Shown here: positions 7,168 to 30,678 of the stretch, in pieces
Layout: the number at the start of each line of letters is the position of its first letter
Position numbering within the stretch: position 1 is the stretch's first letter
Origin: Acidobacteriota bacterium
GTDB lineage: Bacteria > Acidobacteriota > Terriglobia > Acidiferrales > UBA7541
Assembly: GCA_003167215.1 (NCBI GenBank)
Contig: PMTV01000022.1
Span: forward strand, 1 to 32,041
Length of the DNA: 32,041 nucleotides
Direction: 5' to 3'
Program-made: the position numbers and the translations under genes
Notes under the pieces: model-generated
What the model was told of the DNA's origin: nothing
Database searches by the model: none
The model's input: the letters and a program-made list of their open reading frames with translations, nothing else

Positions 7168-9528
7168 TTACTCGGTCTGAAATGTCGCTATCCGAACATG
7201 TGAGATTGCCCCACCTGCGTCGCCCGACTGCATTTCGAGGCGATATTCTCCCGGGGGAAAAGTGTCGACCGGAACTTTTAGTGCTAGCGGCACCACGGGA
7301 TTTCCCTTCAACACATACGGAGTCACACTGAACAGACCAGTCGAAAGTACCTGTTTTCCGGTTTTTTGGTCGAAGATTACATATCGGCATCCCACGAGTG
7401 GAGGGTTGGGATTAGACAAACTCGGGTCGTAAACTTGTGCGTACAAAACGACTCTATCGGTTTTCTTGAAGTGATTGCTTCCCGAAGGAGTCAGTTCTAC
7501 GCCTTGCACGATCATGGGCATACGATCCGCAAGTAAATCGGCATCCAAGTCACTGGAGCCCTCGGACACACGTTGCATTTGATTACTGAACGCCAGTCCG
7601 CTTAGGCTGAACGTCTTTCCGTCGTACGGCTCGATTACGAGGGGAGTCTCGTATTTCCCAAATTTCTGCGCGCCACCCGACAGAACAACAGTCAGCCGAT
7701 ATTGTCCCGGAGCGACGGAGAACTGAGTTTGATAGCGCATCGGCGACTGCGTAAACTTCTGCAATTCTTCTTTTTCGAAGTCCATATTAATTTCGTCGCT
7801 AAATCTGGCAGCCACCGATCCATCCGGCCGGTAGGCGATGCCAAGAACGTTTACATCTGCATGGTATTTTCCCTTTACCTTGGAAAAATCAATCGTCGCA
7901 GAAGGCACTTCCATCGCCAAATCCACTCGAGCCTCGTTATTCGAGGTGTAGAAGAACGGCGCTTCCAGCGAGCCTTCGGTAGCGGCTCCCGAGGCTGCCG
8001 CTCGCGTCTCAAGCTCTTTTTCGATCGGTTTTCCGGCCAGCATGTCGGTGGCTTTAATGTTGCAGTACCCGCTGCGTGCTCGTACGTTCGCGCCGCCGCG
8101 CTCGACCTTGACCTTCAGCGTGTGACAACTGCCCTCCGTTGAATCGGTCGGCACATATCCTAAAAGGTAGTACTCATTTTGTTCGTTCGCGATCTTTTGC
8201 AGTCCAGCGAACAAGTCGTTCGTATCGAAAATAGGAAAACCGCCAGTTCCATCAGCCAACATATAGAGCACTTGCTGATTCGTGGCCGCCGATGGCGGAA
8301 ACGCGGGAACAATTGCTCGCGGCTGGGTGTTGTTTGGGTTGCCATAAGTCCCGGTGTTGTTAACTCCTCCGCGGCTTCCGCCACCGCTGGTGCCGCCCGT
8401 ACCACCGGAGCCGCCTTTGCCGCCGCCAGTGCCGCCTGTCCCGCCTGTGCCCCCTCCTCCACCGCCCCCACCATGTCCACCTCCGCCTCCACCACCTCCG
8501 TGCTGCAGATAAGCCAATTCAGACGGAGGAGAGACGTGATAAGAGGCGAGAGAAATGCCTGCGCCGGTCGATTGAAGTCTTTCTGTTTCAATTAGAGAGT
8601 GCATCGACGCCGAAGTGGAAGCGCCGGGAAGGCTGTTGTCGGGAATAAATGACGAAGGCCCGCGCCCGGATCCGGGCGCAATGTCCGGCGTCACCAAACC
8701 GCGCACGTCCAGCGGATAAATTGCGACGTTCGCTTTGTTGCAGACGTCGATGGTTGCGGTTAGTTCCGACTCGGCCTCGGGAGTGAGCGGAAAGCCGGAC
8801 GAAAAAAGGATCATGCTTTTTCGCCCTGGAACACTCGCGAGACTTTTTGCCACGCTTCGGACTGCGAGCAACAAGCTCTGCACTCCAAAATCGGCGACAG
8901 CAGCGTCGGTCGAGGGCGAACCCGGAAGAGACAGCCCACCGGAAGAAAACGCTCCGCTCGCAGTTCCGTTGGGGTCGACGGCAGAAGTTTTTATATTTTG
9001 CACCGCTTGCTTGAGCCGGGTCGCATCGGCGGTGAAATTCTGCTCGACCCGTAGAGTGCCCCCGAAATCCATAACCGCCATCACGCGATCAGGTCCGGCG
9101 TTCTGGTCGATGAATTTTGCCGCGGCAGTGCGCGCTTGCGCCTGATCGCCTACATCCATGGTGGAATTGTCAAAGAACAGCACCATGTAGTGCCGCCCGG
9201 ATGCGGCAGCGGCGTTTGGATCCGCGCCAAACGAGAAATTGGTGACCGGCTGCTGCTTATTGTCCTCGTAAACCTTAAAATCGTCGGCCTTCAGATCGTG
9301 CACGTAATTGCCCTTCTTGTCGGTCACGACAACATCGACGCGCACAGCCCGCGACTCAGCCTTAATGGAAGGAGCAGCTGCCTGTGATGCCGGTTGCTGA
9401 GGGGAATCCTGTGGCGCCTGATGCGCCAGCGCGACTCCAAAAGACCCAATCGAGCGTTCTCCGAGGCCGCCCGCAACGAGAAAAAGCAGCAGCAGAAATA
9501 CAAGCAAGGCTACTCGGCGCTGAGTCAT
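7168..9528 (-). CDS. Exported VWFA-related protein (acidobacterial TIGR03436 type) with Gly-rich linker
   Basis: A 786-residue protein with a cleavable signal peptide (hydrophobic core about residues 7-22). The N-terminal module has the family hallmark DLKADDFKVYEDNKQQPVTNFSF (about 78-100), followed by a von Willebrand A-type fold starting at MVLFFDNSTM (115-124). The metal-ion-dependent adhesion motif is degenerate: D120 and S122 are kept but the second Ser position is Met. Residues 344-388 form a Gly-rich linker, after which come beta-rich regions. Location is probably periplasmic or surface. Family members are abundant in Acidobacteria with unknown function. The ATG is preceded by GGAAGGTGA, and only 15 bp separate it from the related upstream gene, so the two look like a duplicated pair in one operon. 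Confidence 0.85.
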   Translation of the reverse strand: MTQRRVALLVFLLLLFLVAGGLGERSIGSFGVALAHQAPQDSPQQPASQAAAPSIKAESRAVRVDVVVTDKKGNYVHDLKADDFKVYEDNKQQPVTNFSFGADPNAAAASGRHYMVLFFDNSTMDVGDQAQARTAAAKFIDQNAGPDRVMAVMDFGGTLRVEQNFTADATRLKQAVQNIKTSAVDPNGTASGAFSSGGLSLPGSPSTDAAVADFGVQSLLLAVRSVAKSLASVPGRKSMILFSSGFPLTPEAESELTATIDVCNKANVAIYPLDVRGLVTPDIAPGSGRGPSSFIPDNSLPGASTSASMHSLIETERLQSTGAGISLASYHVSPPSELAYLQHGGGGGGGGHGGGGGGGGTGGTGGTGGGKGGSGGTGGTSGGGSRGGVNNTGTYGNPNNTQPRAIVPAFPPSAATNQQVLYMLADGTGGFPIFDTNDLFAGLQKIANEQNEYYLLGYVPTDSTEGSCHTLKVKVERGGANVRARSGYCNIKATDMLAGKPIEKELETRAAASGAATEGSLEAPFFYTSNNEARVDLAMEVPSATIDFSKVKGKYHADVNVLGIAYRPDGSVAARFSDEINMDFEKEELQKFTQSPMRYQTQFSVAPGQYRLTVVLSGGAQKFGKYETPLVIEPYDGKTFSLSGLAFSNQMQRVSEGSSDLDADLLADRMPMIVQGVELTPSGSNHFKKTDRVVLYAQVYDPSLSNPNPPLVGCRYVIFDQKTGKQVLSTGLFSVTPYVLKGNPVVPLALKVPVDTFPPGEYRLEMQSGDAGGAISHVRIATFQTE
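8365..8499 (-). repeat. Low-complexity glycine-rich coding tract
   Basis: A 135-bp stretch encoding 45 residues that are mainly Gly, with Thr, Ser, Lys and His, largely as GGT/GGTG-like units (residues 344-388 of the VWFA-related protein). It is in frame, starts right after the motif AYLQH, and ends at RGGVNN. It looks like a flexible linker between the VWFA module and the C-terminal half. Repeated codons make it a likely site of length variation by slippage between strains. Confidence 0.8.
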
Positions 9529-9543
9529 CGCTCACCTTCCCTT

Positions 9544-11409
9544 TTACGGTATCTCGATTACACCATTTTTTGCCGATAGCACGGAGGCTTTCGAGTCTCG
9601 CACGACCAACCGGACGATGTAGCCGCCGGGCTTAACGTCGAAGCCCATTTTCACGGTCATGCCGGTGTGAGACAGCTTTTCGAGAGTTGCATCTTTCAGG
9701 TGCAGGTCTACGACTTCCTGGTTTCCGGTGATAAAATTTCCATTCCGGTCGAACAGCGCCGCGACAACAGTCAGCTGATCCCGGTTTCTTCCGTCTGTCT
9801 TTTCGAAACGCACGTGATTTACGTCCACTCGGGTCAGCACGGAGAGTTTTGCATCCATAGCATCGCTTTTGAAATATTGCAGTTGAAGTTCGATTGGAAC
9901 GCCCTGCTGTTCCTCCTGCGAAAAAACCGCCTCCTCAATATCCTGCTTGGCAGTTTCTTCCGGAGTTTGCCCGTGTTTGGGCGCGAAAAAACCACGCCGC
10001 GCCTGGATCGTATATTTTTCTTTCGTGGCCAGTGTCACCTTGATCTGGTGGAACTTGCCGTCAAATTTCAACGCTTCTGGAGAGAAGGCAAGCAAATAAG
10101 TAACTTCGGGCGCCGCCGCCGTCATGCGGAATCCCGCGACAAGATCATTATTATTTCGAAAGTAAAAGCCGCCGGTGCTGCCGGAGAGATTCGCCAGCGC
10201 ATCCGATTGAATCGATTGTTCTTGGGATCGGTATAACGCGTCCTGGGCCGCGGCATTCGAGTTGGAAAACCTTGGCGGAGGCCGGCTGATATCGCCGCCC
10301 ACATCGACGGTGTAAAGCCCACGTCCGTCGAGCGTGTTAATGAACACGTTCGCGCGCGTGGCCTTATCAATAACCTCCAAAAGGTCGTACTGGTAGGTCG
10401 AAGTGACCAGAAACCCGGGAGAGACAAAAACAATACTGCGTTGCCCGGGAACAGCCGACATCCGGCGAACGAGTTCCGTTAACCGCCGAATCACGAATTG
10501 GGTGTTGTTTTCTCCCGCGAGTACCATTTGCTGGGCTGTTGACTGAACAAGCATAGCCGCGGACTGACTCGGGCCATTCTCCCCACCGCAAGCCTGCGCG
10601 TCCGCGGTCGCGGCTTGGATGGCTTGTACGTCGTGTTGGTTTATGATCAAGTCGGCTTCGTAATAGCCCATCTGAGGGCACTGGGTCGTGTCGGAAGGAT
10701 CGTACATGCCAATGTAATGAGGTATGAGCTGTTGCACCATTGCCCGGACTTTGGCGCGATCGTCGGTGAAGTCTACTTGCGATTGTCCCGAGGTGGTAAA
10801 CACAGCAACACGCTCGCTTGGTTCCGTCGCTGCGTCCAGATAGCGCACAGCGGCAAGACGCGCTTGCATCAGGTCTTGAGTGCTCAATTCCACATCATCG
10901 AACAGAAGCGCGACGAATCGCGACGGCAGAGTCAAAGTTCCGGGAGCGGAGACGTTCGGCTGATCTCCACCCGCCTCGCCTCGCACAACCTGTTTCGCGA
11001 CCGAGGCTGGAGTCTCCACAGAGAAATGCAAAATCGTCTGAGGCCTGCGGTCCTGAGACAGCCGGAAATCTTCTTTAGTCAAATTAGCTACGGCCTTGCC
11101 GTTCGAATCGTGCACCACTACACGAACCGGGACCAAGTTCACATGCGACTCGAAGGGCGTACTCGCATGCGTATTCACTTCGGATGTTGCGTCCGAGGAG
11201 GCCGGAGCCTGCGGCGGAGGAGCCGGCGCTGGCTGCTGAGTTGTGGTGATTTCAGGTGCGGGCTGGGCTGCGGGTGCTTGCTGCGGAGGACTGCTTTGCG
11301 GCGATTGCGCCGCACAAAGAAATGAGCACGGCATCAGCAAACCACAGAGCAAAACTCCCATGCGAGCAGCAGTCGGCCCTGAAAAGCGACGACCCGCAGC
11401 AGCTTTCAT
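9544..11409 (-). CDS. Exported VWFA-related protein (acidobacterial TIGR03436 type)
   Basis: A 621-residue protein with an N-terminal signal peptide (hydrophobic core about residues 18-33) and a Pro/Ala/Gln-rich spacer to about residue 70. The VWFA-related module follows: NLTKEDFRLSQDRRPQTILHFS (about 109-130) corresponds to the same hallmark in the next gene, and the A-domain strand FVALLFDDVELS (165-176) lacks a canonical DxSxS metal site. The C-terminal part has a beta-rich domain related to that of the neighbour (MTVKMGFDVKPGGYIVRLVV). It is the first gene of the minus-strand set; GGAG lies 6 bases before the ATG. Role unknown; exported and probably structural or binding, by analogy with VWA proteins. 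Confidence 0.85.
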   Translation of the reverse strand: MKAAAGRRFSGPTAARMGVLLCGLLMPCSFLCAAQSPQSSPPQQAPAAQPAPEITTTQQPAPAPPPQAPASSDATSEVNTHASTPFESHVNLVPVRVVVHDSNGKAVANLTKEDFRLSQDRRPQTILHFSVETPASVAKQVVRGEAGGDQPNVSAPGTLTLPSRFVALLFDDVELSTQDLMQARLAAVRYLDAATEPSERVAVFTTSGQSQVDFTDDRAKVRAMVQQLIPHYIGMYDPSDTTQCPQMGYYEADLIINQHDVQAIQAATADAQACGGENGPSQSAAMLVQSTAQQMVLAGENNTQFVIRRLTELVRRMSAVPGQRSIVFVSPGFLVTSTYQYDLLEVIDKATRANVFINTLDGRGLYTVDVGGDISRPPPRFSNSNAAAQDALYRSQEQSIQSDALANLSGSTGGFYFRNNNDLVAGFRMTAAAPEVTYLLAFSPEALKFDGKFHQIKVTLATKEKYTIQARRGFFAPKHGQTPEETAKQDIEEAVFSQEEQQGVPIELQLQYFKSDAMDAKLSVLTRVDVNHVRFEKTDGRNRDQLTVVAALFDRNGNFITGNQEVVDLHLKDATLEKLSHTGMTVKMGFDVKPGGYIVRLVVRDSKASVLSAKNGVIEIP

Positions 11410-12173: not shown

Positions 12174-13550
12174 TCACTTTCCAACCGAAGTCTGCGCGTT
12201 CGCTTCATGCGGCTGGCGGCGGTTTAATTGGAAAAGAGTGAAATTGCCATGAGCAGGTTTTTCTTTGCTCCAATCGTGGTACGTGTGGCATTCAAAACAC
12301 CGCGCCTCAGCCCCGTCGCTTCCCGTGTGATGACACTGCTCGCAGGTCCGAATTCCCGGCAAAAGAATATCGGAAGTTTCCTGGCTCGTTCTTGCGGCTG
12401 AATGGCACTCCTCGCATTTCACCAGCCGGTGTTTGTCATGATTGAACATGGCATGCTGGAACCAGTGGACAGTAATATTCGAGTTTGCAACCACGGGAAG
12501 TGGCTGGTTCGTAGGAAAGCTTAGCGCATGGCACTGCATGCACGTTTTTCTCCACAAGAGTTGCTCCGACTCTGCCGCACGCTCCGATACCCACTGCTCG
12601 GGTGTAAGCACTCGAGGAGAAATAGGGAAGGGTTTCTGAGGCAAGTTCGGATCTGAATTTGTAATGCGCAATTCCGCTGGATGCGTGGCAATGTACTGCC
12701 GGAACCTGAGCACTACAAAAGCGTGAACTGCCGTTGGAGTATCGTGCGGCGCGCTTTCTGCAAAACGTTTATCGAATTGCAGCCCGTGGCAGGCAATGCA
12801 GTGCTGTGCGTAGGAGACGGGCGACATATAGGCCCGGGCGGGATTGATCGAGGGAGGTTCCTGTTTCTGCGCAACCGAGGAAGCCTTCGGCTGCGGCACG
12901 CCGCCGAATCTCCATGGCTCATTGGACGCAGGCGGCCGGTGGCAGTCGCCGCAATCGAGTTGCACGGCCGCTCCGTTCGGGCCCATCAGATTTTTTTTCA
13001 GATGTACTCGGTGATCGAGTTTAATGGTTCCGGGATCGACGCTGCCGGCACGCACGGCCGAAAATTCGGGATGGCTGGAGTCGAATCCGTCGATGTTCCG
13101 CGCAAAGTCTGTCGCTGAACCAGCCACACGAAGATTGGCATGACATTGCGTACAACTGAGGTCGCTGGTCGCGGCTAGGCGCAGGCTGCCGCGGTGCTCC
13201 CGATGGCATGAGGAGCAGTTCGGTGTGAACAATTGATTTGTGTGATGAATGGGGCCGTCGTGGCAGGTTTCGCAGGCTTGGTCGCTTGCTTTCGCACTAA
13301 AAGCCCGGGCCTCCTTTACGTGACACGAGCTGCATTGCTCAGTCAGTACGGAATGGCTCACGGACATCTTCCCGCTGCTGTACACGTGATTGTTGCGGGT
13401 CAGTCCATACCAGGCCAGCCAGATAATCGCGAGCGCCGGCACACAGACCGATAAAAGAAAGCGCAAGCGCCGGAAAGGATGCGGGCGCTTGAAGTAATTC
13501 AGATCGATGCGCTGCGCAAGCTTTTTTGTTTTTAGCTTTGCTCGCGGCAA
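12174..13550 (-). CDS. Membrane-anchored decahaem cytochrome c
   Basis: A 458-residue protein with a basic N-terminus, one transmembrane anchor (about residues 30-50), and ten CxxCH haem c sites (CSSCH, CETCH, CSSCH, CTQCH, CGDCH, CIACH, CMQCH, CEECH, CEQCH, CFECH). The haems lie in two groups, four before residue 150 and the rest later, with isolated His residues that could serve as distal ligands. Topology predicts a short cytoplasmic tail and a periplasmic haem domain. It is the last gene of the four-gene redox operon, 25 bp after the cytochrome-b-like gene, and is the expected periplasmic partner of the complex. The start is a TTG with GAGGA 4 bases upstream; no better in-frame start is seen. 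It resembles cytochrome c3/c7-like multihaem proteins in motif spacing, but no exact family can be assigned by eye. Confidence 0.85.
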   Translation of the reverse strand: MPRAKLKTKKLAQRIDLNYFKRPHPFRRLRFLLSVCVPALAIIWLAWYGLTRNNHVYSSGKMSVSHSVLTEQCSSCHVKEARAFSAKASDQACETCHDGPIHHTNQLFTPNCSSCHREHRGSLRLAATSDLSCTQCHANLRVAGSATDFARNIDGFDSSHPEFSAVRAGSVDPGTIKLDHRVHLKKNLMGPNGAAVQLDCGDCHRPPASNEPWRFGGVPQPKASSVAQKQEPPSINPARAYMSPVSYAQHCIACHGLQFDKRFAESAPHDTPTAVHAFVVLRFRQYIATHPAELRITNSDPNLPQKPFPISPRVLTPEQWVSERAAESEQLLWRKTCMQCHALSFPTNQPLPVVANSNITVHWFQHAMFNHDKHRLVKCEECHSAARTSQETSDILLPGIRTCEQCHHTGSDGAEARCFECHTYHDWSKEKPAHGNFTLFQLNRRQPHEANAQTSVGK

Positions 13551-13575
13551 GATTCCTCGCTTCTTTCCCCGAAAG

Positions 13576-14463
13576 TCAGTAACGCAGAGCCATCACCGCA
13601 TGCACGCATCCCAGAAGCAGCAGTGCGAACGACAGCGGGATGTGCAGCATCAGCCATCCATGGAGCCAGTGATGGAGCCGCGCCTGCCTGCGCAACTGCC
13701 GCTCCTCATCGCAAATTTCCTCGAAACGCTTCACAGTGTCATGCGCTTCGGGCGGTAAAAGGCTACGCAGCTCCGCAAAAATTGTGCGCGCCGTATTTGC
13801 GTCTGCAAGCGGCTGGTTTTGCGGCCCTTCTTCTTGCAGAAATGGACGCATCTCGTTAGCGTAGAAAGTAGAAATCGGCAGAGCCGCTTCCGGGGCAAGA
13901 GCCGCTGTTTGTCCAATAGCGGCAGCGGATCTTGCCGATTGTTTTGTTCCCGGAGCTCTGCCTGACCCCACTGTCGCTGCAATCATTTCGTCGGTCTCAG
14001 CGATCAGCCCGGCGCGGACGTGATCGATTTGCTCGAATATGGTTTCCTTGGATACTTCCGCCGTCATCACGTTCGGCATGTAGTGCTGCAACGCAGCGCC
14101 GAAAAGTCCGCTGGCAACGACAATTATGAGCAATACCATCAAGACACTGGTGAGCGGACCGCCGAATCGGAAGCCTCCGTGGAACAGGATAAGCGGCAGA
14201 CTCAGCAGCCCAAGCCACAGGTGGCCGCGCATCCAAGTCTGAGCGCGACCTAATCGCCAGACCGGCAGTTTCTTACGTCCCGCCAGCAGGCCTGCGAATA
14301 ACATGAATGCGGAACCAACAATTCCAAAAGCGAGTCCCACAGGGCTTCCGCCGCTCGGACCAGCGGGCGAATGCGCCGCATATACGACGTAGACGGCCGT
14401 TGCTGCGCTTAAAATGATGAGCGAAGCGGCAAGCCATTTTTGATGAGTTCGATCAATGCGCAC
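13576..14463 (-). CDS. Putative di-haem cytochrome b-like membrane protein
   Basis: A 295-residue protein from a GTG start 30 bp after the upstream stop. A longer frame from 14592 would overlap the upstream gene by 100 bp and adds no recognisable sequence. There are about five transmembrane helices: residues 10-30, 41-62, 80-97, 103-125 and 267-293. A soluble segment of about 135 residues lies between helices 4 and 5. Helix 3 has H81 and H95 and helix 5 has H274 and H288, both exactly 14 residues apart. Such spacing on two helices is the classical arrangement for two stacked b haems, as in ferric-reductase-like and other membrane cytochromes b. The likely role is to carry electrons between the cytoplasmic Fe-S protein and the periplasmic decahaem cytochrome, possibly with a quinone site. 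Haem binding is inferred from the His pattern only. Confidence 0.6.
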   Translation of the reverse strand: MRIDRTHQKWLAASLIILSAATAVYVVYAAHSPAGPSGGSPVGLAFGIVGSAFMLFAGLLAGRKKLPVWRLGRAQTWMRGHLWLGLLSLPLILFHGGFRFGGPLTSVLMVLLIIVVASGLFGAALQHYMPNVMTAEVSKETIFEQIDHVRAGLIAETDEMIAATVGSGRAPGTKQSARSAAAIGQTAALAPEAALPISTFYANEMRPFLQEEGPQNQPLADANTARTIFAELRSLLPPEAHDTVKRFEEICDEERQLRRQARLHHWLHGWLMLHIPLSFALLLLGCVHAVMALRY

Positions 14464-14492
14464 TTTGAATTTGTCTGGCCAGTCGCAATTTG

Positions 14493-16661
14493 CTAACGCT
14501 TGCTCGTAACCGGAGCTTGATTCAGCAGCCCGGCAAAGAATTTCCGCGGATCGACACGGTGAGCCGCATCGTGCGGACAGGCATAGACGCAACTCGGCTC
14601 GGCATACTCAGTACACAGGTCGCACGAAGTAGCTTTCTGCTTCACCATCGCTTTCTTGTGCCCGGGCGCTGCCGGGTCTTCCGCCATCACGTTAAACGGA
14701 TGAATGTTGATATTTCCATAGGGGCAATTCTCGGCGCACAACCCACATCCAATGCACCAATCCTCGATAATCACTTCCAGCGAATTGCGGCGGCGAATCG
14801 ATCCCACGGGGCAACCGACCATACACAATGGATCCAGGCACTGGCGGCAGGACGTTGCCACCAGGTAATGGTCAAAGCGCAGCCCTTCGCGAACCAGGCG
14901 CGTCACACCGTCGTGGGCGTCCGCGCAAGCGCGCACACATGCATCGCAACGAGTGCAACTCGTGAGGTCCAATAACAAGAGGCTTTGCGCTTCCATCAAG
15001 CCTTGAGTCAGAAAATCGTCGAGCGGAACATTTTGCAACACGGAAAGCCGTTCGCGATTCATTTGCGCGCGTTCCTGTTCCACGACCTCCAATTTCCGGC
15101 GCACTTCAGGGAACTCCGCGAGCATGCGCTTGAAATCCTGCGCGCCGATTCGAACCAGCTCCACGTGATCGAGTGCCGTGCAGGTCGCCGTGCGCACATC
15201 CTCGCGCAGCAAACCCGTCTCTCCGAAATATTCGCTGCGCGAAAGATAGGCCATCACCATCTCTCCGCCAAGATGGGATTGCGTCACTTTCACGAAGCCA
15301 ATGCGCACGAGGTAAAAACAGTCAGCAGGCTCGCCCTGGCGGCAAATCACCTGGCCCGGCGAATAGCGAACGAGTTCCACACTTTCGCGCAAGCTGCCGA
15401 TGAACTCGTCAGTCAACTCCGCGAATACGGGAACCGCACGCAAGTGGCTGTCCAGGGCCCGTTGGCGATAGGATTTTTCAAGCTGCGCGCGAAAATTCTT
15501 GTTGCGCTGCATGATGTCGAGAACGTTTCGCAGCATCTCAAGCATCGTGCAATCGGTCTCGGCGCGCACCGTTGCCGACCGCGGATACAAACTCATGCAA
15601 GTCATCTCGCCAAACAGATCGCCCGGATTCAATTCCGCCACCGGGCTGTCGTAATCGAGATCAACCGGCGCGTCGATGGGTATCCAGCGCTTATAGGTTT
15701 CTTCGTCCCGCTGATCTTGCTGGCGCTGCGCAAGCTTGCTGGAAAGTTTTCCCAGAAATTTCTTCACTGCGCCCTTGGTTTTCACATGGGCCATGGGATT
15801 CGAAATCGAAACGCGCGCTTTGCCCTCGAGTATGTAAAAAGCCGTCGAGCCATATTCGCCCTCGCGGCAAATTATGTCTCCGCGCTTGAATTCCCGGCGC
15901 ACAACCGCGCCGCGGTTTAAGCTTAGGAAAGTCCCCGACACTCCTTGAAAGAAGGGAAGTTGTTGCAATTCCTCAACGGGGACGGCTTGGAAAGTGGGAC
16001 CAGTGCCGAGAGCCGTATGCGTGAAGCTTTTGTTAGTGAGAGCTCCCGTCGGGCAGGAAACCATGCATTCGCCACATGAAACGCAGGACGATTCACCCAT
16101 GGCGCGCTGATCGTCGAAAGCAATTCCGGCTGCCGTACCCTTGCCCATCCGCGCTAACACAAAATGATCGCGAATTTCGCTGCAGCCCCGGACGCAGCGG
16201 TCACAGAGAATGCAAGAATCGAAATCCACCGCGATACTTGGCGACGAGCTGTCTTTCGCGCGTCCGGTACTGTACGGCGCAAAACGCGGGCGCGTCAGAT
16301 TCTCGCGCCTCGCAAGAGCTTCGAGCTCGCAATCCCCGGAATGCTGCTCCCGCGTGCAAGGGCTCGGATGGTCTGCCATCAATAGTTCAACAAGCGTGCG
16401 CCGCGCGCGCTGCACTTTCTCGGAGTTCGTGTTCACCACCATGCCTGCTTCCACTGGGCGCACGCAAGACGCGGTGAAAACCCGCGCTCCCACATCTACG
16501 ACGCACATACGGCACACGCCTACCGGGGTTTCATTTTGCTGGTGGCACAAGGTTGGGATTGCAATGCCATTCAGGCGGGCTGCGTCAAACACAGTCGTCC
16601 CCGCGGCGACCGAAACTTTGTTTCCGTCGATCGTCAGTTCGACGAGCCCGGTGCTGCTCAT
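14493..16661 (-). CDS. Fe-S oxidoreductase: NuoG/HoxU-like N-terminus, two cyclic-nucleotide-binding domains, polyferredoxin C-terminus
   Basis: A 722-residue, apparently cytoplasmic protein with three modules. Residues 1-210: a [2Fe-2S] domain (C39, C50, C53, C66), a NuoG N5-like His/Cys motif (H98, C102, C111) with Glu instead of the middle Cys, and a ferredoxin domain with two [4Fe-4S] sets (C150/153/156/160 and C193/196/199/203). About 236-525: two cyclic-nucleotide-binding folds, each with the phosphate-binding-cassette pattern (FGE, then R361 in the first and R490 in the second); the first carries a charged insert near 300-335. About 565-700: a DmsB/HybA-like polyferredoxin with four Cys sets (C569-579, C605-617, C636-646, C680-695). 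No molybdopterin domain is present. The ATG overlaps the upstream stop as ATGA, indicating translational coupling. It would take electrons from the NuoEF partner and pass them to the cytochrome b-like protein. Confidence 0.85.
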   Translation of the reverse strand: MSSTGLVELTIDGNKVSVAAGTTVFDAARLNGIAIPTLCHQQNETPVGVCRMCVVDVGARVFTASCVRPVEAGMVVNTNSEKVQRARRTLVELLMADHPSPCTREQHSGDCELEALARRENLTRPRFAPYSTGRAKDSSSPSIAVDFDSCILCDRCVRGCSEIRDHFVLARMGKGTAAGIAFDDQRAMGESSCVSCGECMVSCPTGALTNKSFTHTALGTGPTFQAVPVEELQQLPFFQGVSGTFLSLNRGAVVRREFKRGDIICREGEYGSTAFYILEGKARVSISNPMAHVKTKGAVKKFLGKLSSKLAQRQQDQRDEETYKRWIPIDAPVDLDYDSPVAELNPGDLFGEMTCMSLYPRSATVRAETDCTMLEMLRNVLDIMQRNKNFRAQLEKSYRQRALDSHLRAVPVFAELTDEFIGSLRESVELVRYSPGQVICRQGEPADCFYLVRIGFVKVTQSHLGGEMVMAYLSRSEYFGETGLLREDVRTATCTALDHVELVRIGAQDFKRMLAEFPEVRRKLEVVEQERAQMNRERLSVLQNVPLDDFLTQGLMEAQSLLLLDLTSCTRCDACVRACADAHDGVTRLVREGLRFDHYLVATSCRQCLDPLCMVGCPVGSIRRRNSLEVIIEDWCIGCGLCAENCPYGNINIHPFNVMAEDPAAPGHKKAMVKQKATSCDLCTEYAEPSCVYACPHDAAHRVDPRKFFAGLLNQAPVTSKR

Positions 16662-18370
16662 GCCGGCCTCGAAGCCATCGCCGCTATATTCGGCCGTTTG
16701 TCGGCCGCGAAGCAGATGCCCGACGGGCACTCTCGGCGCGACAAGTGTGCGTCCACTTCCTCGCGAAAATGCTTCAGTACGGACGAGATTGGCGCCGGAA
16801 CCACTTGTCCCAGACCACAGATCGACGTCAGCCGCAGCGCGTCGGAAAGCTCGTCGATAAGCCCCATGTCGCTCGAAGATCCTTCGCCCATGGTCCATGC
16901 AGTAAGCAGGTCAACCATCTTCTGCGAGCCTACGCGGCACGGGACGCATTTTCCGCAGGATTCGTTGCGGAAAAACCGCGTAGCGTTCAGCGCCATGTCC
17001 AACATGCACGTTCCCTCAGCGCAAACCACCAGCGCGCCAGAACCAAGCATGGACCCGGCATCCGCGAGTGACTTGAAGTCCAACCGCACGTCAGCCATGG
17101 ATGCCGGCAGGTATCCCGACGAAGGCCCTGACGACGCAAAACCTTTCAGTTTTTTCCCATTGGGAAGACCACCGGCATAGCGAAAAATCAATTCAGACAC
17201 CGGCGTGCCCATGGGCACTTCATAAACGCCGGGCCGCACAACGTCACCACTCACGCCGATAAATTTTAATCCCGCGCATCCTCCCGTGCCCTGTGCTTTA
17301 TACCAATCCACACCGCGCAACAGAATCGAAGGCACGTTTGCAAACGTTTCGACGTTGTTTATAACGGTGGGCTTGTTCCACAGTCCCTGCTGGACAGGGA
17401 AGGGCGGTTTATTTCGCGGCTCGGCGCGCTTGCCTTCGATCGCTTCCAGCAACGCGCTTTCTTCGCCGCAGATGTAGCCGCCCGGGCTCACAAAGGTATC
17501 CAACTCGAACGCAATGTCACTGCCCAGAATGTTCGGCCCCAGAAGGCCTTGCTCCCTGCATTTCCGAATTTCTTCCTGGAGAATTTTTTCCTGTTCCTCG
17601 TATTCGTGCCGGATGTAGAGAATGCCCGTGCGCGCGCCAGTCAGCACGCCGGCAAGGATCATGCCTTCGATAACCAGATGCGGAAGGTGTGTGAGTATGA
17701 AGCGGTCCTTAAATGTACCAGGCTCGCTTTCATCCGCATTGCACACCACATACTTTTCGGTGCCCGGCGCTTGCCGCACAAGTTGCCATTTTGATTCGGT
17801 AGGAAAGCCTGCGCCGCCAAGACCCCGGAGGCCGGAAGATTTGAGCGTCGCAAACGCCGAATTCCAATCCCGCGATGCAATGACACTCCTCACAACGGCA
17901 TAACGCGCTTCACTGTCAGCTTGGTAAGGATCCGAGGCACATTTTGCGTCACGTTTCGGATGCGGAGGATGCGGCAAAGCTTTACCCGATATTGCGTCGC
18001 CGATCATTACCATCACTCGCTCTTCGGTCATCCCGCTATAAATGCGGTCGTTGACAGAAACAGCGGGCGCCTCATCGCAACGCCCCAGGCAGGAAACACC
18101 GCTGACGCGAACGTCCGGGCTGTTCGCCTGCGGAAATGCGTCTTCCAAACTGGCGCGCAAGCTGCAAGCCTGGCGCAGGTGGCAGGACATGTCCTGGCAG
18201 ACTCGAACGTCCACTCGGGGCGGCGGAGTCAGACGGAAATGCGGGTAAAAGCTGGCCACGCTGTGCAGGCGGGAAAGCGGTACATCGATTTTCCTGGCCA
18301 AAGTCCTGAGCTGCTCGGCGGGTATGTATCCGAACTGGCGCTGAATCTCCCTGAGGTCTTCGAAAACCAA
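16658..18370 (-). CDS. NuoE-NuoF fusion, NADH-oxidising flavoprotein subunit
   Basis: A 570-residue fusion. Residues 1-130 are NuoE-like (thioredoxin-fold [2Fe-2S]) with Cys ligands C58, C63, C94 and C98 in the standard Cx4C / Cx3C spacing. From about 155 it is NuoF-like: the FMN/NADH motif GLRGLGGAGFPT (180-191), NADESEPGTFKDR, and the [4Fe-4S] ligands C472, C475, C478 and C518. By family it oxidises NADH (or reduces NAD+), handling electrons through FMN and Fe-S clusters. No other Complex I subunits are nearby; instead the gene heads a four-gene operon with an Fe-S/CNB protein, a cytochrome b-like protein and a decahaem cytochrome. The start is TTG, with a GGGGAG-type ribosome-binding site; no ATG or GTG is available before an in-frame stop. 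The C-terminal tail has two extra Cys (C548, C553). Confidence 0.9.
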   Translation of the reverse strand: MVFEDLREIQRQFGYIPAEQLRTLARKIDVPLSRLHSVASFYPHFRLTPPPRVDVRVCQDMSCHLRQACSLRASLEDAFPQANSPDVRVSGVSCLGRCDEAPAVSVNDRIYSGMTEERVMVMIGDAISGKALPHPPHPKRDAKCASDPYQADSEARYAVVRSVIASRDWNSAFATLKSSGLRGLGGAGFPTESKWQLVRQAPGTEKYVVCNADESEPGTFKDRFILTHLPHLVIEGMILAGVLTGARTGILYIRHEYEEQEKILQEEIRKCREQGLLGPNILGSDIAFELDTFVSPGGYICGEESALLEAIEGKRAEPRNKPPFPVQQGLWNKPTVINNVETFANVPSILLRGVDWYKAQGTGGCAGLKFIGVSGDVVRPGVYEVPMGTPVSELIFRYAGGLPNGKKLKGFASSGPSSGYLPASMADVRLDFKSLADAGSMLGSGALVVCAEGTCMLDMALNATRFFRNESCGKCVPCRVGSQKMVDLLTAWTMGEGSSSDMGLIDELSDALRLTSICGLGQVVPAPISSVLKHFREEVDAHLSRRECPSGICFAADKRPNIAAMASRPA

Positions 18371-18579: not shown

Positions 18580-18608
18580 TTGACTTAAGTCGAGGTGGGT
18601 AGTATAAA
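18580..18608 (+). promoter_or_regulatory. Promoter of the c554-like cytochrome gene with overlapping palindrome
   Basis: TTGACT (18580-18585), a 17-bp spacer and TATAAA (18603-18608) make a strong sigma-70-type promoter. A perfect 10-bp palindrome GACTTAAGTC (18582-18591) covers the -35 and the start of the spacer, so a repressor or activator dimer could bind there. The predicted transcription start near 18615 lies after the GTG at 18595, so that GTG cannot be the translation start on this transcript; the ATG at 18670 is preferred. Confidence 0.55.
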
Positions 18609-18669
18609 AATTCGGCTGTTGAGTTTTTTCGCTGATTCTGCGGCGCGTGGCCGTCCTGCCAAACGGAAA

Positions 18670-20070
18670 ATGACAACGAGACTTACTAAGGCAGCGCATT
18701 CGCGCACCGTGAATGTTTCAATTCTTCTCGCAATCCTTGCTATTTTCGCTTCTATTTTTCCCCTGGATGCCTATTCGCAGAGCCGCTCTATTTCGTCGCC
18801 CGCGACAGCGAAGCCTGACGACGCAGCTGGCAAGTACACAGGACCCGGTTCGTGCGCCTCGACGACCTGCCACGGAAGCATAGTTCCGCGGAGCGATAAT
18901 CGCGTGCTGCAGAATGAGTACAGCATCTGGATCGTAAAGGACAAACACTCGAAAGCATACGCAGCTCTGACCGGCCCAATTGGGGAGCGAATGGCCAAGA
19001 TTCTTGGCATAAGTGCCGCGGAAACCGCGCCCAGATGTCTGGCATGCCACGCGGTCGATGTGCCGCAGAGCGAACGCGGCCGCACGTTCGAGTTGAGCGA
19101 GGGGGTTAGCTGCGAAAGTTGCCATGGGCCGGCAGCCGGATGGCTGGGCCCGCACACGGAGCGCGATTGGACGCATCAAAAATCGCTCGCGCTTGGAATG
19201 TACGACACGCGCGATCTGACCAAGCGCAGTGAGAAATGCCTTTCGTGCCACCTGGGCAACGACGAAAAGTCCGTGGATCACGAAATGATCGCCGCGGGCC
19301 ATCCGGATCTTTTCTTCGAACTGGATACTTTTTCCGACGTGATGCCGCGCCACTGGAAAGAACCTGGAGAGCCGGGCGAAGCCGCCGGCACGGACCCTTG
19401 GTACAACGTTCGCGAGCTTACCAGCGGGCAAGCCGTTCAACTCCGGCAGTCTCTACTGCGGCTCGCGTCGAGGTCGCACGGTAAAATTTGGCCTGAATAC
19501 TCGGAACTCCAATGCTACGCGTGCCACCACAGCCTAACTCCTCCGGAGCAGAGTTGGCGCCAGGCCCGCGGCTATCCGGGGCGGCGTCCGGGCAATCCGC
19601 CTTGGAATCCTTCGCGCTACGCGGTGTTCCGCGATGTTGTTCGTCAGCTCGATGGAGAGAATGCGGAAAAGTTGGATTCCGAACTTTCCCGCCTCGGGCA
19701 ATTAATGAGCCAGCTCAATCCCGACCGCAATGCGGTTGAGACATCGGCGACGAATTCGGCACATCTGGCCGACGAGTTGCTGGCGAAGATGAACTCCGCA
19801 CCTTATGATCCTGAGGTCACGTTGCATTTGCTGCAGAAAATCTCCGCCGACGCCGACGATATTTCCGGCCAGGGCGAGCATTCCGCAGCGCAAGCGGCCA
19901 TGGCGATTCAATCTCTTTTTCTCGCTTACGAGCGGAACGAAAAATTGCAAAATTCCGACCAGTTGCGCGCTGCAATCAAGGGCTTGTTTCAAGAGTTGCA
20001 AAACCCGTCCGCTTACGATCCTGCTCGATTCGCCGCTCAGATGAAGCAGGTGAACGCTCTGCTGCGCTAA
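18670..20070 (+). CDS. Exported pentahaem c554-like cytochrome c
   Basis: A 466-residue protein with a signal peptide (hydrophobic core about residues 14-30, likely cleavage after AYS near residue 36). It has one unusual CX4CH site (C62-C67-H68, CASTTCH) and four CxxCH sites (CLACH 123, CESCH 148, CLSCH 190, CYACH 282). The pattern resembles the cytochrome c554/c' group. The C-terminal 180 residues are helical and haem-free. It is probably a soluble periplasmic electron carrier or reductase. The start was set by the promoter at 18580-18608; a longer frame from a GTG at 18595 lacks sense upstream of the signal peptide. It is divergent from the NADH/cytochrome operon, and the glycoside hydrolase gene begins 6 bp after its stop. 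No catalytic specificity can be read from the motifs. Confidence 0.85.
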   Translation: MTTRLTKAAHSRTVNVSILLAILAIFASIFPLDAYSQSRSISSPATAKPDDAAGKYTGPGSCASTTCHGSIVPRSDNRVLQNEYSIWIVKDKHSKAYAALTGPIGERMAKILGISAAETAPRCLACHAVDVPQSERGRTFELSEGVSCESCHGPAAGWLGPHTERDWTHQKSLALGMYDTRDLTKRSEKCLSCHLGNDEKSVDHEMIAAGHPDLFFELDTFSDVMPRHWKEPGEPGEAAGTDPWYNVRELTSGQAVQLRQSLLRLASRSHGKIWPEYSELQCYACHHSLTPPEQSWRQARGYPGRRPGNPPWNPSRYAVFRDVVRQLDGENAEKLDSELSRLGQLMSQLNPDRNAVETSATNSAHLADELLAKMNSAPYDPEVTLHLLQKISADADDISGQGEHSAAQAAMAIQSLFLAYERNEKLQNSDQLRAAIKGLFQELQNPSAYDPARFAAQMKQVNALLR

Positions 20071-20076
20071 CCTGCG

Positions 20077-22791
20077 ATGCCAAAAAAAACCAGCCAACAG
20101 TCACGCGAACAAAAACGGCTCGAAGAATCCGACCCAGGTTCGGTTCCGCTCTGGTTGCGATGGGGTCCGTACGTCAGCGAACGCGCCTGGGGCACCGTAC
20201 GCGAAGACTACAGCGCCAACGGTGATCCCTGGAGCTTCCTACCGCACGATTTGGCGCGCAGCAAAGCCTATCGCTGGGGCGAAGATGGAATCGCCGGGAT
20301 CTGCGATCGGTACCAGCTTCTGGTCTTTGCGCTCGCGTTTTGGAACGGGCGCGACCCGATCCTGAAAGAGAGAATGTTCGGGCTGAGTTCTCCCGAAGGC
20401 AATCACGGCGAAGACGTAAAAGAATATTATTTCTACCTCGACAACACTCCCACGCACAGCTACATGCGGATGCTTTACAAATACCCGCAAGCTGAGTTCC
20501 CGTATTCCCATCTGGTGGAAGAAAACCGCCGCCGCGCCGGACAAGGTCCGGAGTTCGAATTGCTCGATACGGGCATTTTCGATGACAACCGGTATTTCGA
20601 TATCTTCGTCGAGTATGCCAAAGCCGACCCCGAGGACATCTGCATACGCATCGAGGCTTTCAATCGGGGCCCGGAAGACGCGGTGTTGCATATTCTTCCG
20701 CATTTGTGGTTTCGAAACACCTGGTCGTGGACCGCGGTGGCGGGAACGGAACCGTCGATTCGGGAAGGAACGGCGCTCGCGAGCGCTGTGGTGCTCGAAG
20801 CCGACTGCACTGCCGCAAAACCTCTGGAGAATCTGCAGGTGGATTATCGCCTGGGCTTGATGCGTCTTTACGGCCCAACTCCCAAGGAAATACTTTTCAC
20901 GGATAACGAGACCAATGCCGGCCGCGTGTTCGGCCCGGGCCACTCTAACCGCAAGGCACACGCGAAAGACGCCTTTCACCGCCATGTAATCAGCGGTGAA
21001 AATTGCGTTAACCCGGAACGTGTCGGAACCAAGGCATGCTTCCACTACGCGCTGAAAATTCCCGCGGGGAAATCAGTGGTTTTACCTTTGCGATTGACGG
21101 ACAAGAAAGTGGGAAGCGGTGATTCTCCGCTTGCGAGCGTGGATGGCACTGTCAAGCAGAGAAGGGAAGAAGCCGACGAATTTTATTCCACCATCCATCC
21201 CGTCGGCGCATCGCCGGAAGAACGCATGATTCAACGTCAGGCTCTCTCCGGCATGCTTTGGAATAAGCAGGCCTATTTTTTCGACGTGGCCCTCTGGCTC
21301 GATGGCGAAAATCCCAATTCTCCTCCGCCGGCGTCACGCAAAGAGATTCGCAACGTGCACTGGCGTCATTTGAACTCCATGCGCGTGATGCTCATGCCCG
21401 ACAAATGGGAATATCCGTGGTTCGCCTCCTGGGACCTGGCATTTCATTGCGTCACGCTGGCCTTGGTGGATATCAGAGAGGCTAAGGAAAATTTGTGGGT
21501 CCTACTGTTCGAGCAATTCCAGCATCCCAATGGCCAGATTCCCGCCTACGAATGGGAATTCTCCGATCTGAATCCGCCAGTGCAAGCCTGGGCCTGCTGG
21601 CGCATTTACCAGATGGAGAAAGAACGCACCGGCACTGCGGATCAGGAATTTCTGGAAAAATGCTTTCACAAGTTGCTTATTAATTTCGCTTGGTGGGTGA
21701 ACAAGGTCGACAGTCAAGGGCTCAACGTTTTCGAAGGCGGATTTCTCGGGCTTGACAACATCACAGTTGTTGACCGCAGCGAGAAACTTCCTGCCGGCGC
21801 GGTTCTGGAGCAATCGGATGCCACCGGGTGGATGGGATTTTTCTGCCTGCACATGATGCGTATCGCCCTTGAGCTAGCCGAAGACCGCCCCGTGTACGAA
21901 GGGCTTGCTACCAAGTTTTTCGAACACTTTATCGGTATTGGCGCAGCCATGAAAAAAATGGGCGGGCGCGATTACCAGTTGTGGGATGAAAAAGAAGGTT
22001 TTTTCTACGACGTTCTCCGCTTTTCCAGCGGCGAATTTCACAAATTCCGCGTGCGCTCGCTGGTGGGGCTGATTCCAATGCTGGGCGTCGAACTCATTCG
22101 CGAAGATGAGTCAAAGCACTTGAAGCACTTCCTAGCAAATGTGAACTGGTTTATCAAAAACCGCCCCGATCTGGTCGGTCACGCCTGTCATACGGACATT
22201 AGAGACGGAGTTCGCTGTCACGTGCTTTCGATCGTCGATCGTGCGCAATTGACCCGGATTCTGCAGCGGCTATTCGATCCTGAAGAATTTCTATCCTCTG
22301 CAGGCATACGCAGCCTTTCCAAGTTCCACGAGCGCTCTCCATTCGCATTTGCGAACAATGAAGTGCGCTACACGCCGGCGGAAGCGGACGTAAAAATCAA
22401 AGGTGGGAACTCCAACTGGCGCGGCCCGGTCTGGTTCCCCACGTCTTATCTGATTCTCGAATCCGTGCTTAAATTCGCAGACGCTTTTGGCGACGATTTG
22501 AAAGGTTCGCGAGGCCCCAAGCTCCGCGCCATGGCCGGAGAGATCGCCAATCGCATGATCGGAATCTTTCGCCTGGACCGCAATGGCAAGCGCCCGGTGT
22601 TCGGCAATGCAAAGAAGTTCCAGGAAGACCCCCACTGGCGAGAATGCCTGCCGTTCCATGAATTTTTTCACGGCGACACGGGCGCCGGTTTGGGCGCAAG
22701 CCACCAGACTGGATGGACGGGGCTGGTTGCCAACATGATCGACGAGTGGCGCCGCAAAGATCCGGAAGAATCACTGGATCGAAAAAAATAG
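20077..22791 (+). CDS. GH63/MGH1-like glycoside hydrolase (glucosidase)
   Basis: A 904-residue protein without a signal peptide, so probably cytoplasmic. The N-terminal motif [19 protein letters not shown] and [10 protein letters not shown] belong to the MGH1-like/GH63 glucosidase group. The catalytic (alpha/alpha)6-barrel region begins with [14 protein letters not shown], where D453 is a candidate general acid, and includes [13 protein letters not shown] (W781 to W786 region). Relatives hydrolyse alpha-linked glucosides such as glucosylglycerate, mannosylglycerate or oligosaccharides; the substrate here is unknown. The ATG follows the cytochrome stop by 6 bp and has no strong Shine-Dalgarno of its own, suggesting translational coupling. 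The pairing of a sugar hydrolase with a multihaem cytochrome is unexpected and may only reflect shared transcription. Convergent with the following lipoprotein gene. Confidence 0.8.
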
Positions 22792-22863: not shown

Positions 22864-24477
22864 CTATTGCGTAGGATTGCGAGGAAACGAAAGATAGGGC
22901 AGGCGCACGCCGTCGATAATAATCCGGTCCGCGCGGATTGACGCGGGAGCTTCAAATCCCACACCCCCTCCGGCTGTCACGAAATCGTCTTGATCCACGC
23001 CGTCTCCGCTGATTCCCAATCCGCCTACCAACACGCCGTTGATATAGAGCGGCTCCGAGCCCGGGAAAAAGACGACCCCACTTTGATTGGGATTAGGCGC
23101 CTGGAATCCTTGGGTGCAAGGATTGGCTACGTCTTGCGTGTACAGATTGAAAAACGGTCCCGCCGCTGAACCATCAATTCCAGGCGGGAAGAACGGCTGC
23201 GCGCCGAAGCCGATTGTGCGGTTGGTCACAGCGGTGCCGATGGGAACTTGATTCAAATCCGCCATCGTTCTGGTCGTACCGCTGAAATAAATCACGTTTC
23301 GCGCTTTGGTGGCGGCGACATCGATGCTGAACACGGTGGCATCCGGCATCCTATACAGTCCTATCAGCGTGCCATCGAGATCGCTCACCGCGATCGCCAT
23401 TCTGGCCTTAGAACCCAACGGCAGTCGAATCTGTGCCCGTGTCTGGTTCGCCGTGGCCACAGCCGCGTTGATGATCTGAGTGACCTGCGCCACGGTCAAG
23501 CCTCCCAGCGGTCCATTCGTCGGCGTGATCAAATTCCCGTCGGGCGGGGCACCGGGGCTGGCCGTGGGTCCCACTGAAAAGAAGGCCGCGTTGAATGTGC
23601 CGGGCGCGGTTGCTCCAGAGGGAAGCGTAGTTTGATTTACAAACGGTAGCGTAATCCCGTTAATCGTAACCACGCCTGGTGAAGGGAATTGCGGGAACCC
23701 TACCTGATCCGTTTGTGTGCTAGGTCCACCCGCGGCAATCATGCCGGCTGCGACGAAGGCAACATATTCCGCAACGTCCGCGCTCACGCCTGTGACTCCG
23801 ACTCCTCCCACTTCCTGCCCATCTTTGAATATCGGCACTCCGCCGGGATTCACAGCGGCTTGTTGCGAGTCCTCCACGTCTGCTTTGCCCGTGGCGATCC
23901 CGAGTCCGGGGCTTAAGCCTAGAATCGTCGTGGAGGGCGGGACCGTGGCGGAAAGTGTGCTGGATAGAGTGCAGCCGCGGTTTGTATTCTCGATCCCGTA
24001 GAGCGCGCCATTGGCAGTGTTCATCACTTCCGGTGGGAAATGAGTTCCGCTTATGAAGCGAACGGTGCGTGAGGACAGCGGTGCTTGGTCGTTGCTAAAA
24101 AACGCACCGGTCCGAGCAAGGGAAACTGCGAGGTCGTCCGATGCCACCATCTGGCTGAAGTTACCCACCACGGTCGGGGGCACGGACGGCTCCTTGTAAA
24201 CAGCCAAAATGCGCCCGAGCCGGTCCACAACCGCGATCGCCATCGTGTCCGAACTGACCGCTTCGGCGGCCGCTTGCACTATGGCTGACACGTCAGTCTT
24301 GCTGAGTGTTTGAGGTGGCGGGGGCGGTGGAGGAGGCGAATTGCTGGAACTGCCGCTATTTCCGCCGCAGGCGCACAGCACTAGGCACAACGCTGAAGCG
24401 GCCCAGGCTAGCGGGGTAAGGCTCTGCCTTGTTGCGCGATGGAAGCTTCTGAACATCCTCGTGCCTATTCGTACCAC
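22864..24477 (-). CDS. Lipoprotein with two GlcG/HbpS-like (haem-binding) domains
   Basis: A 537-residue predicted lipoprotein: hydrophobic signal ending in LVLCAC, a lipobox-like cysteine, then a Ser/Asn stretch and an eight-proline run before the folded part. Two related domains follow, each ending with the GlcG/HbpS-type motif: VGGVGVTGVSADVAEYVAFVA in the first and VGGLGISGDGVDQDDFVTA in the second. HbpS of Streptomyces binds haem extracellularly, while other family members act in glycolate use or as cofactor-binding proteins. Haem binding here is inferred. A GTG at 24477 has GGAGG 8 bases upstream; an ATG at 24456 is a possible alternative, and the frame opens at a GTG at 24492. It sits between the two cytochrome gene sets and is divergent from the beta-barrel gene. 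Confidence 0.75.
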   Translation of the reverse strand: MVRIGTRMFRSFHRATRQSLTPLAWAASALCLVLCACGGNSGSSSNSPPPPPPPPQTLSKTDVSAIVQAAAEAVSSDTMAIAVVDRLGRILAVYKEPSVPPTVVGNFSQMVASDDLAVSLARTGAFFSNDQAPLSSRTVRFISGTHFPPEVMNTANGALYGIENTNRGCTLSSTLSATVPPSTTILGLSPGLGIATGKADVEDSQQAAVNPGGVPIFKDGQEVGGVGVTGVSADVAEYVAFVAAGMIAAGGPSTQTDQVGFPQFPSPGVVTINGITLPFVNQTTLPSGATAPGTFNAAFFSVGPTASPGAPPDGNLITPTNGPLGGLTVAQVTQIINAAVATANQTRAQIRLPLGSKARMAIAVSDLDGTLIGLYRMPDATVFSIDVAATKARNVIYFSGTTRTMADLNQVPIGTAVTNRTIGFGAQPFFPPGIDGSAAGPFFNLYTQDVANPCTQGFQAPNPNQSGVVFFPGSEPLYINGVLVGGLGISGDGVDQDDFVTAGGGVGFEAPASIRADRIIIDGVRLPYLSFPRNPTQ

Positions 24478-24648
24478 AGCTTCGACCTCCACTCAATGTG
24501 TCGTTAGTTACTTGGCGTGGCTGGTGGTTGGAAATCCCCATAAAGTTCCTGGCCGAAATCCCTTGCCCAGTCTGAAAGACCTGTGATAGCAACAACCGTT
24601 AAGTCTTGCTTGCAAGTGAAATTCGTAAAACATCCAAGGACAATTTGG

Positions 24649-26880: not shown

Positions 26881-26913
26881 GAGATTAGGGCAAGAGTTTT
26901 GGGAGCTTTTCTG

Positions 26914-29900: not shown

Positions 29901-30678
29901 ATTTAACCCTGGCGGAATCTTGAATGGCGCGCGACGCATCACCATCGCCGGCACGTACGCTTACATTTTGTGCGACCGTGGCTTGGTCGTCGTGGACCTC
30001 GACAAGCCTCTGCAACCGCGAGTCGCAGCGGTGGTCGGCGCGCCTGATTTGAATGACCCGCAGGGAATCGCGATCCAGTTCCGCTACGCTTTCATCGTCG
30101 ATCGCAACGGACTGAAAGTTCTTGACGTCACGCAACTGGATCATCCGCGTATCTTGCCAGACGCCACCGTAGCGCTCCAAGAGGCCCGCAACGTTTATGT
30201 AGCGCGCACATACGCATACATCGCCGCCGGGAAAAACGGCCTTGCGATTGTGGATGTCGAACGCCCCGAGCACCCAAAACTCGATCAGATGTTTTCCGCT
30301 GACGGCAAATTGAATGACGTACGCGACGTGAAAATCGGAATGGTCGACGCGAGCGCTTTCGCCTTCGTTGCCGACGGCGTCAACGGCCTTCGCGTTCTGC
30401 AAATATTGTCGCCCGAAGATTCACCAAACGCCTACGGATTCAGCCCGCGTCCCACTCCAAAACTCATCGCTACGTACCGCACGGCCGCCCCCGCGCTTGC
30501 AATCTCAAAAGGAACCGATCGCGATCGCGCCGTTGACGAAAGCGGCAATCAATTGGCGGTATTCGGCCGCCGCGGTGCGAGACCCTTCAACCGCGACGAG
30601 GCATCAGGCCTCTATCTACACGACGGAAAACCCTACACTGTTCCCTCCGATCCACCGAAGCTGCAAACTCAGCCGTGA
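26914..30678 (+). CDS. Large exported multihaem cytochrome c with LVIVD-type beta-propeller
   Basis: A 1254-residue protein with an N-terminal signal or anchor (about residues 20-42). Residues 65 to about 800 contain nine CxxCH sites (CVSCH, CTDCH, CTACH, CMVCH, CVDCH twice, CYACH, CFGCH, CDDCH) and one CX4CH (CGTAGCH), ten haem sites in all. From about residue 800 to 1190 run about seven LVIVD-like blade repeats, for example [22 protein letters not shown], each with an aromatic-x-Tyr start and a hydrophobic D-containing core; these predict a beta-propeller. The ATG at 26914 has GGGAG 8 bases upstream; a TTG at 26899 is an alternative. The gene follows the barrel gene by 33 bp. The protein is probably periplasmic or at the outer surface. 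Its role as an outer-membrane electron conduit or a haem oxidoreductase is inferred. Confidence 0.85.

Follow-up and report, generated by a model that had tools for sequence, protein, structure and literature searches.

The MtrCAB and Pcc systems, acting with CymA, CbcL, or ImcH, combine an outer-membrane barrel and multihaem cytochromes with a multihaem relay in the periplasm and a cytochrome in the inner membrane at which electrons enter, and the catalogued inner-membrane entry proteins of bacterial extracellular electron transfer (EET) are quinol oxidases (PMC6295460). In the Geobacter ExtHIJKLMNOPQS system (PMC5877670), a porin and several multihaem cytochromes are encoded along with a cytochrome b of the inner membrane. 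In Methanosarcina, Rnf, a complex using a cytoplasmic reductant, is proposed to feed the multihaem c-type cytochrome MmcA for EET (PMC6703419). Here, we describe an eight-gene locus in a 32,041-nucleotide stretch of DNA (the window; contig PMTV01000022.1) from a bacterium of the Acidobacteriota, class Terriglobia. The locus encodes a NuoE–NuoF fusion (NuoEF), an Fe–S protein with cyclic nucleotide-binding (CNB) domains, a five-helix membrane protein (Mem), a decahaem c-type cytochrome (Cyt10), a cytochrome c554-family protein, an HbpS-like protein, a porin, and an LVIVD-repeat cytochrome. Its composition indicates that it is probably an NAD(P)H-linked electron conduit across both membranes.

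The locus resembles MtrCAB/Pcc in its barrel, multihaem cytochromes, relay, and inner-membrane cytochrome entry, but entry would occur through an NAD(P)H/Fe–S/CNB module and a predicted bis-haem b protein rather than a quinol oxidase, and its porin carries a CarboxypepD_reg domain. With the Ext system it shares a porin, several multihaem cytochromes, what is predicted to be an inner-membrane cytochrome b, and a partial similarity to ExtM; unlike that system, it lacks rhodanese, Rieske, and ExtKL proteins and has a NuoEF or PyrRedox module and CNB domains. The proteins of Rnf-MmcA are unrelated to those described here, and Rnf is an ion pump in an organism with no outer membrane, whereas no pump is encoded at this locus. 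HydABC/Bfu enzymes and NuoEFG of complex I possess a homologous NADH input module, and the B2-site ligands are kept (PMC9304861); in contrast, the locus has no hydrogenase, quinone, or molybdopterin module. We found no named system of this composition in the open-access literature, in agreement with the initial annotation of the window, although an earlier description elsewhere is possible. We place the locus with the porin–cytochrome conduits. Entry from a soluble reductant instead of quinol would be its new feature.

Composition and conservation of the operon

The initial annotation had delimited an operon of four genes, and we recovered all four open reading frames (ORFs) at the same positions on the minus strand. 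NuoEF (16658-18370, minus strand; 570 amino acids, TTG start) was identified by Pfam and PDB alignment and contains 2Fe-2S_thioredx, Complex1_51K, SLBB, and NADH_4Fe-4S domains. The Fe–S/CNB protein (14493-16661, minus strand), identified by Pfam, NCBIfam, and PDB matches, contains Fer2_4, Fer4, cNMP_binding, and Fer4 arrays, and its gene shares a 4-bp ATGA overlap with that of NuoEF. Mem (13576-14463, minus strand) shows five long membrane helices in its AlphaFold2 model, and Cyt10 (12174-13550, minus strand) is of the cytochrome c7/c3 type in Pfam, with exactly 10 CxxCH motifs and a single N-terminal transmembrane anchor. The proposed five-helix and membrane-anchored decahaem proteins are therefore borne out, as are the domains that had been assigned to NuoEF, the Fe–S/CNB protein, and the cytochrome. 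The overlap and the 25-bp gap before Cyt10 had been reported correctly; the intervening gap measures 29 bp and not 30 bp. Two tandem TIGR03436 acidobact_VWFA proteins (7168-9528 and 9544-11409, minus strand) adjoin the operon, and this pair recurs, among the loci examined, only in two close relatives (L033 and L058).

A scan of genome contigs returned relatives of the locus in Terriglobia metagenome-assembled genomes (MAGs), mostly from soil. Wherever enough flanking sequence was available, the order NuoEF, Fe–S/CNB, Mem, Cyt10 was always kept, and nearly all complete Cyt10 orthologues have ten haem motifs. The initial annotation had offered co-occurrence of the four genes as a check on its proposal, and three of them, NuoEF, Fe–S/CNB, and Cyt10, were counted in a class sample of 399 genomes. 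The NuoEF fusion, called at E ≤ 1e-150, occurs in 53 of these, and the Fe–S/CNB gene and Cyt10 accompany it in 53/53, nearly always in tandem. NuoEF and Fe–S/CNB lie on one contig in 52/53 genomes, and in 51 of these they are no more than 300 bp apart and in the same orientation; Cyt10 is found one gene beyond Fe–S/CNB in 51/51 genomes with both on one contig. Operon linkage is far beyond chance. One MAG titled Bordetella parapertussis (L059) carries an acidobacterial locus and is probably a mislabelled bin.

The linked core was, however, only part of the unit, which had been drawn too small; synteny and co-occurrence show that the c554-family cytochrome, the porin, the LVIVD cytochrome, and the HbpS-like protein belong to it. 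The LVIVD cytochrome is present in 48/53 genomes with the NuoEF fusion versus 12/346 without it (Fisher p ~1e-44, not corrected for phylogeny), and in 29/53 its gene is no more than 15 kb away from the operon. The c554 gene is usually conserved beside the operon in relatives, and the HbpS-like gene is in the same operon in six loci (L098-L101, L120, and L139). The eight genes occur together: alongside the core are a porin and multihaem cytochromes that are secreted.

Exchange of the NADH module and occurrence on plasmids

The Mem profile matched 40/297 genomes of the phylum, and we inspected 40 stretches from those genomes. The window and L115 have NuoEF together with a NuoG-CNB-FeS protein (type I). 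In type II (the six loci named above, from distant Acidobacteriota in the case of L098 and L099), Pyr_redox is fused to CNB-FeS, and Mem, an FHA-Cyt10, the HbpS-like protein, the porin, and the LVIVD cytochrome share one operon with it; the FHA part was undetected in L139, and c554 comes after the LVIVD gene where the flank was read (L098 with L136, L099 with L137). Type III loci (L103, L104, L113, and L122-L124) encode a Pyr_redox protein separate from CNB-FeS, Mem, and Cyt10 and, as a rule, an FHA protein too. Type IV loci make CNB-FeS-Mem as one protein adjoining FHA, 7-8-haem, 4Fe–4S, and Pyr_redox parts, which are fused in L105, L106, L108, L109, L130, L131, L134, and L135 and split in L107, L126-L129, L132, and L133, where some of the loci showed no Pyr_redox gene. 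A single protein of L105 contains FHA, an 8-haem domain, 4Fe–4S, and PyrRedox joined through a membrane helix, and Mem is fused with Cyt10 in L110. Finally, L110, L111, L112, L116, and L117 (type V) have the CNB/Fe–S-Mem-Cyt10 core with no NADH module nearby.

The NADH module is interchangeable, being either NuoEF/NuoG or an unrelated Pyr_redox flavoprotein. The case for a single system uniting NAD(P)H chemistry with the haem chain is made most strongly by this replacement and by the flavoprotein–multihaem fusions across a membrane helix. They also uphold, along with near-invariant synteny and a separate complex I cluster, the earlier idea of an NADH-to-periplasmic-haem module that works without complex I or a molybdoenzyme. 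That idea, which is partly supported overall, took in too few genes, and the NADH module is not obligatory, there being none near the type V cores. Complex I has its own cluster elsewhere in the host genome (contig C53, L118) and none of its membrane subunits are encoded at the locus; we rejected NuoEF as a part of complex I because of this separate cluster. Only two molybdopterin-domain matches were found in the host genome, one of them inside the complex I cluster.

Sampling beyond Acidobacteriota covered plasmids, by tblastn. Twelve Sphingobium plasmids encode the CNB-FeS protein; the LVIVD cytochrome was found on 12 plasmids of Sphingobium and one of Sphingopyxis. Plasmid pMSHV of S. herbicidovorans, typed as conjugative, carries a complete set consisting of Pyr_redox-CNB-FeS, Mem, a 10-haem Cyt10, c554, HbpS, porin, and LVIVD genes. 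In the stretch of the Sphingopyxis record that was read, annotation and order show the outer half as a four-gene run. On one Sphingobium plasmid (L152, 1-7950), a ShlB/FhaC-type secretion gene and a 2093-amino acid protein, function unassigned, adjoin the c554 gene.

Predicted cofactor sites and electron path

The sequence of NuoEF predicts sites for NADH/flavin mononucleotide (FMN), a NuoE [2Fe–2S] cluster, and an N3/B1-type [4Fe–4S] cluster. NuoF residues were mapped to Bfu numbering via PDB alignment, in which the best score was to bifurcating HydB/BfuB, and conservation was assessed over 31 orthologues. Ligands of the B2 [2Fe–2S] cluster of the Bfu family, which is linked to bifurcating enzymes, are C438, C/T476, H525, and C531 in A. 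mobile numbering (PMC9304861). In NuoF, C455, H542, and C548 are kept in 31/31 orthologues and T493 in 29/31. Just 13-32 residues follow H542, so that the BfuB C-terminal Fe–S domain is missing, and the Bfu FMN-site residues A202/M204 are replaced by T219/K221 in 31/31. For these two reasons, and despite the B2 ligands, we treat NuoEF, as judged from these residues, as an NADH module outside the Bfu family whose B2-like site is unusual. On the same grounds, a mainly electron-bifurcating role was rejected as the best interpretation.

The Fe–S/CNB protein, whose best PDB match is HydA1, consists of a NuoG-like Fe–S N-terminus, CNB domains, and a C-terminal polyferredoxin with four [4Fe–4S] motifs, whose 16 Cys are kept in practically every copy aligned. 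The NuoG-like His-ligated (N5-type) motif (16329-16370, minus strand) has lost its middle Cys in 29/29 full-length orthologues, a further difference from HydABC/Bfu and NuoEFG. The phosphate-binding cassette of CNB1, FGEM..M..YPRSAT, is present with its Glu and Arg in 35/35 copies, and the CNB2 cassette, GE...RTA, in most. Conservation of these cyclic AMP-type cassettes suggests that a cyclic nucleotide may gate electron flow or assembly.

Mem has no Pfam match of its own, and a PDB profile search gave no useful match. Of 54 diverse Acidobacteriota homologues, 52-54 keep each His of two HX13H pairs, H81/H95 on helix 3 and H274/H288 on helix 5 of the AlphaFold2 model; from these two His pairs with ~13-residue spacing, as expected of an FRD/NOX-like or cytochrome b membrane protein, Mem is predicted to be a bis-haem b protein. 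VIA-align rows for Mem included STEAP1/4 at Z 6.5-7.1, scores that unrelated helical bundles also reach, and rows for TorS and the dynein stalk were discarded as helical-bundle similarity. Mem-family genes also adjoin giant cytochromes in L114 (5878-10893, 53 CxxCH), L138 (4710-8246, 44), and L125 (2189-7425, 28/23). The bis-haem b family may serve further conduits too.

The four additional proteins include the divergent c554-family protein (18595-20070, plus strand; start codon uncertain), which was identified by Pfam and has four CxxCH motifs and one conserved CX4CH. The predicted secreted or lipoprotein of HbpS type (22864-24492, minus strand; Pfam) might have a role in haem handling. The porin (24583-26880, plus strand), identified by Pfam, AlphaFold2, and Foldseek, has an N-terminal CarboxypepD_reg domain, a barrel of ~18 predicted strands (mean predicted local distance difference test score of 59.9), and a C-terminal Phe in nearly all orthologues. 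Its best Foldseek match is AlgE (E 4e-13), followed by other porins. Beside it lies the gene for the secreted LVIVD-repeat cytochrome (26899-30678, plus strand; Pfam), with nine CxxCH motifs and one CX4CH, and an outer-membrane β-barrel is thus encoded with a multihaem cytochrome, as in porin–cytochrome conduits. PDB searches yielded one weak match for Cyt10 and none for the LVIVD cytochrome. Between the c554 and HbpS-like genes is a gene for an MGH1/GH63-type glycoside hydrolase (20077-22791, plus strand), which is also found near the operon in L033, L048, L051, L053, L055, L062, L064, and L067. Elsewhere in the window, an ORF at 28-2016 (plus strand), beside a glucose-6-phosphate dehydrogenase gene, has Pfam matches to phosphoglucose isomerase and to the C-terminal part of the transaldolase profile.

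In the conduit that we favor, NADH would be oxidized in the cytoplasm by the FMN of NuoF, and electrons would travel by way of clusters of the NuoF and NuoG types to the polyferredoxin with its four clusters, on to the bis-haem b groups of Mem, and across the inner membrane to anchored Cyt10. The c554-type cytochrome would act as the periplasmic relay to the LVIVD cytochrome, which together with the outer-membrane porin could deliver electrons to an external acceptor, such as a metal oxide, a humic quinone, or another compound. Such an outward module would dispose of NADH electrons with no energy conserved at that step. A more specific version, a quinone-independent, cyclic-nucleotide-gated wire from NADH to the outside, is one that we put forward only tentatively. 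It would comprise a HydABC-derived NADH module whose B2-like site passes electrons to the polyferredoxin, haem b and multihaem cytochromes spanning both membranes, an interchangeable input, and plasmid spread.

Direction of flow, quinones, and the outer-membrane half

Outward flow is most likely, given the gene composition, because it is downhill in redox and with respect to the membrane potential and no ion pump is encoded at the locus. Inward flow, in which Fe(II), humics, or another cell would supply electrons from outside for the reduction of NAD(P)+ or ferredoxin, would accord with the host, which appears aerobic from its four haem-copper oxidases, and with the ability of multihaem conduits to run both ways (PMC6295460). 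The same considerations of redox and membrane potential, with no ion pump at hand, would make NAD+ reduction from periplasmic haem uphill, and we regard this direction as quite unlikely. Mem might instead exchange electrons with menaquinone; the locus would then encode either an NADH:quinone oxidoreductase or a cytochrome chain fed by quinol, with NADH entering through a regulatory branch. DMSOR-B-type polyferredoxins and di-haem b proteins often contact the quinone pool, some Mem members have weak Ni_hydr_CYTB and DUF4405 matches, and the NADH module is not near the core in some relatives; furthermore, CymA, CbcL, and ImcH, the known inner-membrane points of EET entry, oxidize quinol (PMC6295460). 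Most of the relatives that we examined, however, encode a pyridine-nucleotide module or have one fused, and the L105 protein links PyrRedox and 4Fe–4S directly to an 8-haem domain via its membrane helix, leaving a quinone-linked inner part, in our view, unlikely.

The outer half could also serve as a specialized enzyme in the periplasm or at the surface, such as a reductase of oxyanions or of haem/iron, fed by NADH electrons, instead of as a general conduit. Part of the LVIVD cytochrome matches ExtM from the selenite/tellurite operon of Geobacter, in which the porin ExtI is needed for normal selenite and tellurite reduction (PMC5877670), and an HbpS-like protein belongs to the set. The match covers only ~275/1259 residues (E 3e-19), its 68.9 bits fall far under the NCBIfam cut-off of 800, and the rhodanese, Rieske, and ExtKL genes are not in the locus; we consider such an enzyme improbable. 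That NuoEF/NuoG is a second NADH module for complex I or a bifurcating HydABC-like unit, with the cytochrome genes as mere neighbors, would fit the HydB/BfuB score and the retained B2-site residues (PMC9304861). This explanation appears very improbable in light of the separate complex I cluster, the near-invariant synteny, the absence of the BfuB C-terminal domain, and the T/K residues at A202/M204.

Several observations weigh against the conduit that we favor. No lipobox is conserved among LVIVD orthologues, and surface exposure of this cytochrome is therefore a proposal only. In 24/53 genomes, many with short contigs, its gene did not turn up on the same contig at a distance of 15 kb or less, and in 5/53, two of which are 99% complete (G445 and G480), it was undetected. 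Haem binding by Mem derives from the His pattern, Foldseek with the Mem model gave no significant match, and the type V cores have no adjacent NADH module. The host genome encodes four haem-copper oxidases, such that it need not live mainly by extracellular respiration, and the named Acidobacteriota records are nearly all MAGs.

A conserved system that starts from NAD(P)H and contains CNB domains in uncultured soil Acidobacteriota would open a new redox route in soil, and the plasmid copy in culturable Sphingobium makes this system amenable to laboratory testing.

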